A program made the position numbers and the translations under genes. Positions 54,294 through 58,039 of a stretch of DNA of 64,000 bases are shown here, in pieces. Below the pieces are notes generated by a model. It had not been told where the DNA came from and made no database searches. It worked only from the letters and a program-made list of their open reading frames with translations. The DNA comes from Pseudovibrio exalbescens (GTDB lineage Bacteria; Pseudomonadota; Alphaproteobacteria; Rhizobiales; Stappiaceae), in NCBI RefSeq assembly GCF_028737195.1, contig NZ_JAQZAJ010000001.1, positions 186,001-250,000 on the forward strand. Direction: 5' to 3'. Within the stretch, counting starts at the first letter, position 1, and every line of letters begins with the position of its first letter.

Positions 54294-55592
54294 ATGCTCC
54301 AAGATCAGGATCGTATCTTCACCAACCTCTATGGACTGCATGATTGGGGCCTGGAAGGCGCCAAAAAACGCGGTAGCTGGTCTGGTACAAAAGACATTCT
54401 GACCAAAGGGCGCGAGTGGATTGTCGAGGAAATGAAGGCTTCCGGTCTTCGTGGTCGCGGCGGTGCGGGCTTCCCGACTGGTCTCAAGTGGTCCTTCATG
54501 CCGAAGCAGAGCGATGGACGTCCGGCATATCTGGTTGTAAATGCCGACGAATCGGAGCCCGGTACCTGTAAAGACCGTGAAATCATGCGCCACGATCCTC
54601 ACCATCTGGTTGAAGGGTGTTTGCTCGCAGGTTTCGCCATGGGTGCGATTGCTGCATACATCTATGTGCGCGGCGAATTCATCCGTGAACGTGAGCGCCT
54701 TCAGGCCGCAATTGATCAGGCCTATGACGCTGGCCTTATCGGCAAGAACAACGTTCATGGTTACGACTTTGACATCTATGTTCATCACGGGGCAGGGGCT
54801 TATATCTGCGGCGAAGAAACCGCGCTGCTGGAGAGCCTTGAAGGCAAGAAGGGCCAACCGCGCCTGAAGCCACCGTTCCCGGCAAACATGGGCATCTATG
54901 GTTGCCCGACCACCGTGAACAACGTGGAATCTATTGCTGTTGCCCCTTCAATTCTCAAACGTGGTGCGTCCTGGTTCTCCGGCATGGGCCGTGAGAACAA
55001 TGCGGGTACCAAGCTGTTCTGTATCTCCGGTCACGTGGAACGTCCATGTACCGTTGAAGAAGAGATGGGCATCAGCTTCAAGGATCTGATTGAGACACAC
55101 TGCGGTGGCATCCGTGGTGGCTGGGACAACCTGCTTGCGGTCATTCCTGGTGGTTCTTCCGTGCCTTGCGTAAAGGGCGAAGACATGAAGGATGCCATCA
55201 TGGACTTTGATGGCCTCAAGGATGTGGGGTCCTCTCTTGGTACTGCTGCGGTGATCGTCATGGATAAGTCTACCGACATCATCAAGGCAATTGCCCGACT
55301 TTCCTACTTCTACAAACACGAGAGCTGCGGCCAGTGTACGCCTTGTCGTGAAGGCACCGGCTGGATGTGGCGTGTGATGGAACGGATGGTTAAGGGCGAG
55401 AGCTCCTATGAAGAGATCGACATGCTCTTCAAGGTCACCAAGCAGGTAGAAGGTCACACGATCTGTGCCCTTGGTGATGCGGCTGCCTGGCCAATTCAGG
55501 GATTGATCCGAAATTTCCGTCCTGTAATCGAAGACCGCATTGATCAGTACGTGGCTCGTTCGAAGTCCGCCACAACGATTGCAGCGGAGTAG
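54294..55592 (+). CDS. nuoF: NADH-quinone oxidoreductase subunit F
   Basis: 432 residues. 51-kDa subunit binding NADH, FMN and cluster N3. The nucleotide loops [13 protein letters not shown] and [15 protein letters not shown] are present, and the iron-sulfur ligands are in [12 protein letters not shown] plus a later Cys ([10 protein letters not shown]). It is followed after 3 bases by a pentapeptide gene rather than nuoG. Confidence 0.98.
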
Positions 55593-55595
55593 GGC

Positions 55596-55946
55596 ATGAA
55601 GTTCGAAGGAGAAAAGCATCGTCTTACTGCAACGGGGAGCGATCTGTCTGGCTCCATGTTTGTTGACTGCAACCTTTCAGGGCTAAGTTTCAACGACGTG
55701 AACCTCTCAGGCGCTGCCATTGACGATGCGAACCTCTCCGGGTGGTCTGTGTTTAACGCAAACATGTCGGGTTGGTCCGTTGATCAGGCCAATCTCTCAG
55801 GGATGCGGATAAAGAATGCCAATTTGGCAGGCTGTGACATTTCCGATAGCCGCTTGATGGGCATGACCATTGATGGAATTGAAGTGACTGAGCTTCTGGA
55901 AGCCTATGAGCGCCAGCAAGCAAGTGGTAAGGACGCCAACGCATGA
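55596..55946 (+). CDS. Pentapeptide-repeat protein inside the nuo operon
   Basis: 116 residues. After a short N-terminus, about nine five-residue repeats of the A(D/N)LSG type (SDLSG, CNLSG, VNLSG, ANLSG, ANMSG and others) should fold into a right-handed beta helix, followed by a helical tail (VTELLEAYERQQASGK). No signal peptide or membrane segment. It has a 3-base gap to nuoF and a 4-base overlap with nuoG (ATGA), so it is translated as part of the operon. Function unknown; an assembly or regulatory role in Complex I is only inferred. Confidence 0.88.
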   Translation: MKFEGEKHRLTATGSDLSGSMFVDCNLSGLSFNDVNLSGAAIDDANLSGWSVFNANMSGWSVDQANLSGMRIKNANLAGCDISDSRLMGMTIDGIEVTELLEAYERQQASGKDANA

Positions 55947-58039
55947 CCAAGATTGTCGTCGACGGCAAAGAAGTTGAAGTTCCAGCGGAATATACGCTGC
56001 TGCAGGCTTGTGAAGAAGCGGGCGCTGAGGTGCCGCGCTTTTGCTACCATGACCGGCTGTCCATTGCTGGCAACTGCCGCATGTGCCTTGTTGAGGTGAA
56101 GGGTGGACCGCCAAAGCCGGTTGCATCCTGCGCCATGAACGTGCGCGACATGCGTCCGGGCCCAAATGGTGAGCCTCCGCAGGTGTTTACCAAGAGCCCG
56201 ATGGTTAAGAAGGCACGAGAAGGTGTGATGGAGTTCTTGCTCATCAACCACCCTCTGGATTGCCCGATCTGTGACCAGGGCGGTGAGTGTGACCTGCAGG
56301 ATCAGGCGATGGCCTATGGCGTGGACAGCTCCCGTTTTGACGAGAACAAGCGTGCGGTTGAAAACAAGTACATCGGCCCACTTGTAAAGACTGTGATGAC
56401 GCGTTGCATTCACTGCACACGCTGCGTTCGCTTTACGACTGAGGTGGCGGGTGTTTCGGAGCTGGGGCTAACGGGCCGCGGTGAAGATGCAGAGATCACA
56501 ACCTATCTGGAAAGCGCGCTTTCCTCTGAGCTTCAGGGCAATGTGATTGACCTGTGCCCGGTTGGTGCGCTCACCTCCCGTCCATACGCTTTCAATGCAC
56601 GTCCTTGGGAGTTGACCAAGACCGAAGGCGTTGACGTGATGGACGCTCTTGGCTCTGCCATTCGCATTGACACTCGTGGCCGCGAAGTCATGCGCATCAT
56701 GCCGCGGACCAACGAAGCGGTTAACGAAGAGTGGATCTCCGACAAGACCCGCTTCATCTGGGATGGTTTGAAGACACAGCGCCTTGATCGCCCATATGTA
56801 AAGCGTGATGGGAAGCTTGGGGCTGCAAGTTGGCAGGAAGCCTTTGAGCTGGTTGGCGATAAGGTGAAGGCCGCGGGCGGCGCACGGGTAGGTGCGATAG
56901 CTGGTGATCTTGCAGCCGTTGAAGACCTTTATGCGCTCAAGAGCCTTATGACCTCAATCGGATCGGCAAATTACGACTGCCGACAGGATGGCGCGCAGCT
57001 TGATCCACGTCTTGGCCGTTCAACCTATCTATTCAATACTACGGTCGAAGGTATTGAAGACGCTGATGCAATTTTGCTGGTTGGCGCGAACCCACGACAT
57101 GAGGCGGCGGTCCTGAATGCCCGCATTCGCAAGCGCTATGTCGCAGGACAAATTCCGATTGCACTCATCGGGCAAAATGTGGACCAGACCTACCCGGTTG
57201 ACTATCTGGGCGCTGGAACGGATACGCTTGCAGAACTGGTTGCTGGCAAGGGGGCTTTCTTCGAAACGTTGAAGAAAGCAGCCCGTCCGATGATCATTGT
57301 CGGTGAGGGCGCAGTTGCCCGCGAAGATGGTCAGGCAATTCTTTCTGCGGCTGCCAAGTTGGCCCAGTCTGTTGGTGCCTTGGCTGACGAGTGGAACGGT
57401 TTCAACGTTCTTGCGACGGCTGCGAGCCGGGTTGGGGGGCTCGACATTGGTTTTGTCCCACAAGAGGGTGGCTTGACGACCGGCGGCATTCAAAATGCAG
57501 CAGGCAAAGGCGAGTTGGACGTTGTCTTCCTGCTCGGTGCTGATGAGCTGGACATGGCTTCTTTCGGTGATGCTTTTGTAGTTTACATCGGTACCCACGG
57601 TGATCGTGGTGCGCACCGCGCCGACGTGATCCTTCCTGCAGCTGCATATACTGAAAAACCTGGCACCTATGTGAACCTCGAGGGCCGCGTTCAGCTTAAT
57701 CCACGTGCTGCGTTCCCTCCGGGAGATGCACGTGAAGATTGGGCTATTCTGAGAGCGCTTTCCGCCCACACAGGTCAGGCGCTACCATTTGATAGCTTTA
57801 ATGATCTTCGCAGTGCGCTTTACAAGGATCATCCGCATCTTCTGGGTGTAGACCAGATCGAGAAGGGCGCAAGCGCTGACATTGCCAAGCTCGCTGAGCT
57901 GGGCGGCGACATGCAGGGCTCCACCTTCGTGTCGGCTGTAACCGATTATTACATGACAAACCCGATTGCACGCGCATCGGCGGTGATGGCGGAGTGTTCT
58001 CAGCTCGCCAAGTCACGGTCGCTTGAGGCGGCAGAGTAG
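55943..58039 (+). CDS. nuoG: NADH-quinone oxidoreductase subunit G
   Basis: 698 residues. 75-kDa subunit. The N-terminal 2Fe-2S ligands are in [19 protein letters not shown] with a later SC; the 4Fe-4S set includes the [16 protein letters not shown] and [10 protein letters not shown] motifs. The rest is a molybdopterin-oxidoreductase-like domain without the extra cluster and length of E. coli NuoG (908 residues). This size equals the mitochondrial NDUFS1 type. It starts inside the pentapeptide gene and ends 11 bases before nuoH. Confidence 0.98.

Follow-up and report, generated by a model that had tools for sequence, protein, structure and literature searches.

A short pentapeptide-repeat gene between nuoF and nuoG in Hyphomicrobiales: a conserved but dispensable, possibly passenger, member of the complex I operon

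Introduction

Between nuoF and nuoG in Pseudovibrio exalbescens lies the gene of a short pentapeptide-repeat protein (PRP) that is linked to nuo genes across lineages of Hyphomicrobiales. The gene keeps its position and its sequence and is under purifying selection, yet it is dispensable: it has decayed or been replaced in some genomes, and proteins of the same type are encoded in other operons. Our tentative reading, held with somewhat less than even confidence, is that the product is a portable β-solenoid adaptor and a passenger of the nuo operon. The PRP family is already known; within the literature searched, what is new is its placement among the nuo genes, as no article on a PRP between nuoF and nuoG was found in the openly licensed part of PubMed Central, judged by titles and the starts of abstracts.

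Results

The window (the whole stretch of DNA analysed, 64,000 nucleotides) comes from a genome of 4.39 Mb and carries the PRP gene on the forward strand at 55,596–55,946, with an ATG start and 116 residues plus stop. Pfam profiles place nuoA, nuoB, nuoC, nuoD, nuoE and nuoF on its 5′ side and nuoG, nuoH and nuoI on its 3′ side. On the same strand, nuoF (54,294–55,592; Complex1_51K and NADH_4Fe-4S) ends in a TAG stop at 55,590–55,592, which leaves a 3-nt gap (GGC) before the PRP gene, while nuoG (55,943–58,039) begins in a 4-nt overlap (ATGA) with its end. Coordinates and Pfam thus confirm the original prediction of a 116-residue PRP gene so spaced, with the PF00805 Pentapeptide profile scoring 44.6 bits against a cut-off of 20.2 (E = 1e-11), well within the family. 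A chance open reading frame is ruled out, because orthologues stand at the same place in 12 other genomes (51–66% identity) and because the gene's dN/dS points to purifying selection (see below).

Each gene end in this series also appears to serve the next gene. Read by eye, GCGGAG at the end of nuoF (55,584–55,589, forward strand) is Shine-Dalgarno-like for the PRP gene, and AAGGA at the 3′ end of the PRP gene (55,929–55,933, forward strand) is likewise placed for nuoG, at a spacing of 9 nt. Among 24 aligned rows, the nuoF-to-PRP spacing is 3–10 nt in 20 (the values for L087, L098, L103 and L105 look artefactual, reflecting where the match ends), the PRP-to-nuoG spacing is −4 to +2 nt in 17, and GCGGAG, again by eye, precedes the nuoF stop in 20; in Pseudovibrio, AAGGA or GAGGA is seen by eye in the PRP 3′ end ~9 nt before the nuoG ATG. 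With such signals at both gene ends, operon economy can account for the coupling. The tight spacing had been taken as the sign of a role with complex I, an argument that loses its force once one sees that a birA-like gene of the same genome starts 0 nt after the nuoN stop codon (nuoN being identified from its position and a PF00361 match), and that an unrelated gene in another genome shares the PRP gene's overlap with nuoG. In L198 (G000:C1:249900-257900), the birA-like gene beyond nuoN is followed by an RNase J gene, then by a small ORF that looks VOC-like by eye and by a gene for a tRNA synthetase; to our knowledge, neither birA nor RNase J is a part of complex I.

The repeat region spans residues ~15–94 (55,638–55,877, forward strand) as delimited by column entropies, with AlphaFold2 strands between residues 21 and 73, and it is built on a ten-residue double unit with a near-invariant N-[LM]-S-G: mean column entropy is 0.06–0.75 bits at the four N-[LM]-S-G registers, as opposed to 1.8–2.4 bits at two alternate registers. 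Of 26 filled rows, 24 have tryptophan at residue 60. A conserved GMTIDGIEV motif (residues 89–97 in the alignments) precedes a C-terminal cap helix at residues 97–109 (55,884–55,922, forward strand), delimited from the AlphaFold2 model and the alignments. Across families, caps and repeats keep ~48–60% identity to the window protein. AlphaFold yields a β-helix followed by this helix (pLDDT 86.2, pTM 0.66), and a second run, on 50 rows, is slightly worse (pLDDT 84.6, pTM 0.54, almost no assigned strands); the protein is accordingly predicted to be a right-handed quadrilateral β-helix. The matched profile and the predicted β-helix with C-terminal helix are what it shares with the PF00805 superfamily, from which it differs in being short, in having N-[LM]-S-G on every other repeat within a strict double unit of ten residues, in the near-invariant GMTIDGIEV-type cap and in its nuo location.

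Structural comparison (Foldseek/VIA) returns the PRPs MfpA, Np275, Rfr23, Alr1298 and Qnr, with MfpA the best match (Z 12.9, rmsd 4.7 Å over 116 residues) and Alr1298 at Z 11.3 (1.5 Å over 79 residues). This resemblance, together with a net charge of −8 for the window protein and a nuo-type PRP found 98 nt downstream of parC, is consistent with a DNA mimic that binds gyrase or topoisomerase IV in the manner of MfpA and Qnr, its place in nuo being incidental. We regard that reading as improbable. Synthetic solenoids, cyanobacterial PRPs and SV2 luminal domains match nearly as well (Z 10–12); the net charge averages just −4.7 over the 50 rows of alignment A3, with extremes of −9 and +2; and the N/S/G ladder, which is conserved, carries no charge, so that two opposite faces of the solenoid would be both uncharged and conserved. 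The parC neighbourhood, suggestive of a topoisomerase link, is a single case (L099:6001-6276, Rhizobiales bacterium 62-47). While the predicted fold is like that of MfpA and Qnr, the window protein has ~53–63% of their length (116 residues against profile lengths of 183 for MfpA and 211–221 for Qnr), and its membership of either group was rejected on the NCBIfam curated cut-offs, every one of which lies far above its scores (MfpA 25.6 against 360, Qnr 22.6 against 240, QnrE 23.4 against 480). A role in anti-phage defence was also considered for the PRP and dropped, there being no PADLOC match.

Homologues do recur in the nuo operons of other alphaproteobacteria, as a check proposed with the original prediction had called for. 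A PRP gene stands directly before nuoG in 13 of 61 relatives' genomes, the source genome included. The nuoF–nuoG junction was read in 50 of the 61 and holds a PRP in 13, a remnant in two, a 145-residue gene in one, a gap of 239–1453 nt in seven and a gap of ≤141 nt in 27. At the family level, 35 of 87 genomes have a match at E ≤ 1e-8, of which 16 are nuo-linked; the other 19 comprise an unlinked homologue in G007 and 18 generic PRPs (E ~5e-12 or weaker), and in the flanks of the 13 of these 18 that were read no nuo gene was found. When species genomes were scanned with two peptide motifs of the PRP, 24 of 26 loci fell between nuoF and nuoG, and an order-wide search of 397 genomes (E ≤ 1e-15) gave 45 matches, 34 of them nuo-linked, in 13 family codes; both linked fractions are biased upward because most rows of the profiles are themselves linked PRPs (13 of 13 rows in A1, 28 of 29 in A2).

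The linked loci of the motif scan, at least nine of which also belong to the 61-relative and family sets, come from Pseudovibrio, Roseibium/Labrenzia, Pannonibacter, Breoghania, Cohaesibacter, Phyllobacterium, Bosea, Hyphomicrobium, Pseudolabrys-like and Tepidamorphaceae genomes and other MAGs. Its two unlinked loci are the one beside parC and a weak one in Marinobacterium (L106). A MAG labelled Planctomycetota (L089) carries a Hyphomicrobiales-like nuoF-PRP-nuoG piece, probably on a misbinned contig. Order-wide, 33 of the 34 linked matches are flanked by both nuoF and nuoG, while in G311 the stretch read shows nuoF alone; the 11 unlinked matches are in G350, G448, G290, G171, G438, G288, G053, G260, G152, G187 and G059. 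Wider samples are sparse, with a match in seven of 385 genomes for the class and seven of 398 for the phylum, the window's own genome being counted in each. Within the ~1.5 kb read on each side (a shorter stretch in L183), no nuo gene lies near any of the six other class matches or five of the six other phylum matches; the sixth, in G059 (L170), has a weak nuoH-like stretch ~1.8 kb off. The PRP at this last locus (G059:C1249) is a distant one with a nuoG-like match ~5 kb off, and the surroundings might be a second, divergent complex-I-like cluster.

Selection on the gene was estimated as mean dN over mean dS with our own Nei-Gojobori script (ratio of means, 21 pairs among seven Pseudovibrio species, window excluded), giving 0.160 for the PRP gene, 0.042 for nuoF and 0.084 for nuoG. 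Losses are nonetheless seen within one 10-genome clade, in which seven genomes retain the PRP gene and the other three have lost it beside intact nuoF and nuoG. In G003 and G007 the nuoF–nuoG gap of 126–129 nt bears traces of PRP C-terminal coding and still has the GAGGA of the PRP 3′ end, whereas in G014 (L041) the slot is filled by the unrelated 145-residue gene, with the same 4-nt overlap with nuoG. These represent at least two independent events and probably three, the count standing at two to three because the starred branches leave the two remnants unseparated. When PRP presence is mapped on a 30-genome NuoG tree, which covers 30 of the 50 junction loci, seven changes are required, at least six of them forced by starred branches.

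The retained 3′ ends with GAGGA and the frequent changes on the tree would suit a gene without current cellular function, kept for the ribosome-binding site of nuoG and because deletions in the operon are risky. We think this very improbable in view of the dN/dS over all 21 pairs and of caps and repeats conserved across families.

Other junctions have inserts of their own. The 145-residue protein encoded in the nuo operon of G014 matches Drt1b|RTasTM in PADLOC (E = 5e-27) and has no Pfam match. Elsewhere, inserts between nuoF and nuoG (L075 in G059, L079 in G057, L077 in G038, and L060, L064 and L071) were labelled by eye as proteins with a helix-hairpin-helix-like end, a glyoxalase-like protein and short coiled coils.

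PRPs of the same type outside nuo show 48–56% BLAST identity to the window protein. Apart from the parC case, they lie between fadJ-like and thiolase genes (L178 in G350, L148 in G448) and adjoin acs (L183, L184); for G290, G171, G288, G053 and G007 the contexts were listed without gene names. PRPs of a more distant type are found between bdhA (3-hydroxybutyrate dehydrogenase) and a patatin-like gene (L165, L166, L189, L190, L191), a second operon in which short PRPs have a conserved place. This order occurs in two family codes, one within and one outside the window's order, with the same cap type. Distant-type PRPs also stand near a PF01467 gene, presumably coaD-like, in L164 and L181.

Whether conservation follows the operon or the subfamily can be judged from 44 chosen nuo-linked rows, split by eye into 32 and a further 12 that are without the MKIxxEKH-type start and cap. 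Among the 32, 31 columns reach ≥85% conservation; these show a mean of 0.94 in six same-type PRPs from outside nuo (L099, L147, L148, L150, L183 and L184, used to the exclusion of 12 more distant outside rows), which are biased towards retaining these columns because they were found with same-type profiles, and of 0.64 in the 12 divergent nuo-linked PRPs. Conservation therefore tracks subfamily, not operon, the opposite of the pattern expected if it marked a complex I interface.

A deep PRP tree (62 rows, 114 columns, L190 absent), in which 21 forks are open and the bootstrap had not settled, has six changes between nuo and other homes, one of them forced by starred branches; neither this tree nor the comparison of distances described below is able to date or count insertions. 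Spread by plasmids was rejected on a tblastn search of 72,556 plasmid records, which gave 10 matches, all in Rhizobium and at 36–44% identity (five non-mobilizable, four conjugative and one mobilizable). At the three of these 10 loci that were opened, the gene sits beside GNAT, DUF982 and similar genes, and the gene tables, which are incomplete, list no nuo gene.

Pairwise distances were compared for the window and 22 of the 24 linked loci; L087 and L089, which are on partial contigs, were omitted. Distances of the PRP correlate weakly with those of the Nuo subunits (Spearman 0.05–0.30, Pearson 0.31–0.54, against 0.72–0.83 and 0.82–0.92 of Nuo with Nuo), as is partly expected of a protein so short and so quick to evolve. 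Where genus-level groups are well supported, the PRP tree mostly agrees with the NuoF+NuoG tree, with one starred conflict (L095 with L096), and the gene thus stays with nuo for long times. No NuoF column separates seven PRP-positive from three PRP-negative genomes; one NuoG column does so, unconvincingly, since it is mixed in the outgroups.

Discussion

The observations are, in our tentative view, best accommodated by a non-essential adaptor that would have entered the nuoF–nuoG junction early in Hyphomicrobiales, by a single early insertion, and been carried there since as a passenger, presumably co-translated with NuoF and NuoG from one message. The end of nuoF would give the PRP gene its ribosome-binding site, and the PRP 3′ end would give nuoG its own. 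The protein itself, going by the model, would be a short right-handed quadrilateral β-helix of ~16 pentapeptides in four coils, closed by the C-terminal helix. That helix may form a head-to-head dimer by analogy with other PRPs, as the C-terminal helices of MfpA and Qnr are described to do in the available part of the source (PMC8145042). Its uncharged Asn/Ser/Gly faces and C-terminal cap most likely make it a soluble protein-binding surface, the partner of which need not be complex I.

Several lines of evidence are in keeping with such a passenger: a linked position over 13 family codes and in 24 of 26 scanned loci, selection on the gene, the loss events, the other operon homes, the column test (0.94 against 0.64), the weak PRP–Nuo distance correlation, and the presence of birA and RNase J after nuoN. 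On the other hand, 34 of 45 order-wide matches at exactly the nuoF–nuoG junction, even as a fraction biased upward, are more than a random passenger would lead one to expect, unless they descend from one insertion. The genus-level agreement of the PRP and Nuo trees also argues against a passenger, as does the fact that the fadJ-like and bdhA homes carry NAD-linked dehydrogenases, as nuo does; such neighbours could reflect a shared redox-related job.

The same facts can be read in favour of a lineage-specific accessory subunit of the complex I N-module (NuoEFG), or of an assembly or stability factor for it, in a subset of Hyphomicrobiales, and this we consider plausible, if on the doubtful side. 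The nuoF-PRP-nuoG order is kept in 13 family codes, with close spacing to nuoF in 20 of 24 rows and to nuoG in 17, and the gene is under purifying selection. In addition, short PRPs beside respiratory dehydrogenases have been described in print. Alr5209 of Nostoc PCC 7120 is a short PRP whose gene shares an operon with one annotated as NADH dehydrogenase; in the text available, this neighbour is likened to type 2 NADH dehydrogenases and not to complex I (PMC7337050). The window protein reaches E = 8e-7 against the Alr5209 family (NF052603), but with 29.1 bits it falls well outside that family's cut-off of 125. PedD of Pseudomonas, from what the accessible portion of the article reports, is a PRP in a PQQ alcohol dehydrogenase cluster, truncation of which impaired growth on short-chain alcohols (PMC12997753). 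Both it and the window PRP are encoded in a respiratory dehydrogenase gene cluster, a likeness of gene context drawn without sequence comparison; PedD, as far as the same portion goes, differs in being extracellular by prediction and in serving a PQQ alcohol dehydrogenase. Finally, the PIMT subunit of Paracoccus complex I offers a precedent for a lineage-specific extra subunit, being bound in a solved structure according to the part of the source at hand (PMC11522691); it is an unrelated protein, and the PRP is known from genes and models.

Distribution is one point that weighs against a complex I factor. Strong nuoG matches occur in 59 of the 61 relatives, whereas a linked PRP occurs in 13 (junctions read in 50), so that the PRP neither follows complex I nor, given the other operons, is exclusive to it. 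Two decayed copies and one replacement fall within a single 10-genome clade; no convincing NuoF or NuoG column distinguishes genomes with and without the PRP; same-type PRPs outside nuo share the conserved residues; and the distances correlate weakly with those of the Nuo subunits, as far as that can be asked of a short, fast-evolving protein. That the gene can be lost or replaced, and that its kind has other homes, speaks against an essential part of complex I, and linkage within a conserved operon does little to prove shared function. The role with the complex that the original prediction drew from tight coupling is weakened by a linked PRP that is absent from most sampled genomes and decays in some, and by same-type PRPs near fad, parC and acs.

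A broader possibility, which we think unlikely, is that a short PRP adaptor family with one cap type serves NAD(H)-linked dehydrogenases (complex I, FadJ–thiolase, 3-hydroxybutyrate dehydrogenase). The nuo-type member would then be an accessory or assembly subunit of Hyphomicrobiales complex I that is specific to the lineage and has so far gone unrecognised.

For the interpretation of nuo operons in general, the warning to be taken from this gene is that tight spacing within them is weak evidence of a complex I role. For the PRP itself, one conserved operon address in many alphaproteobacteria, together with natural losses in sister Pseudovibrio genomes, would allow a direct test of whether the protein acts on the respiratory complex.
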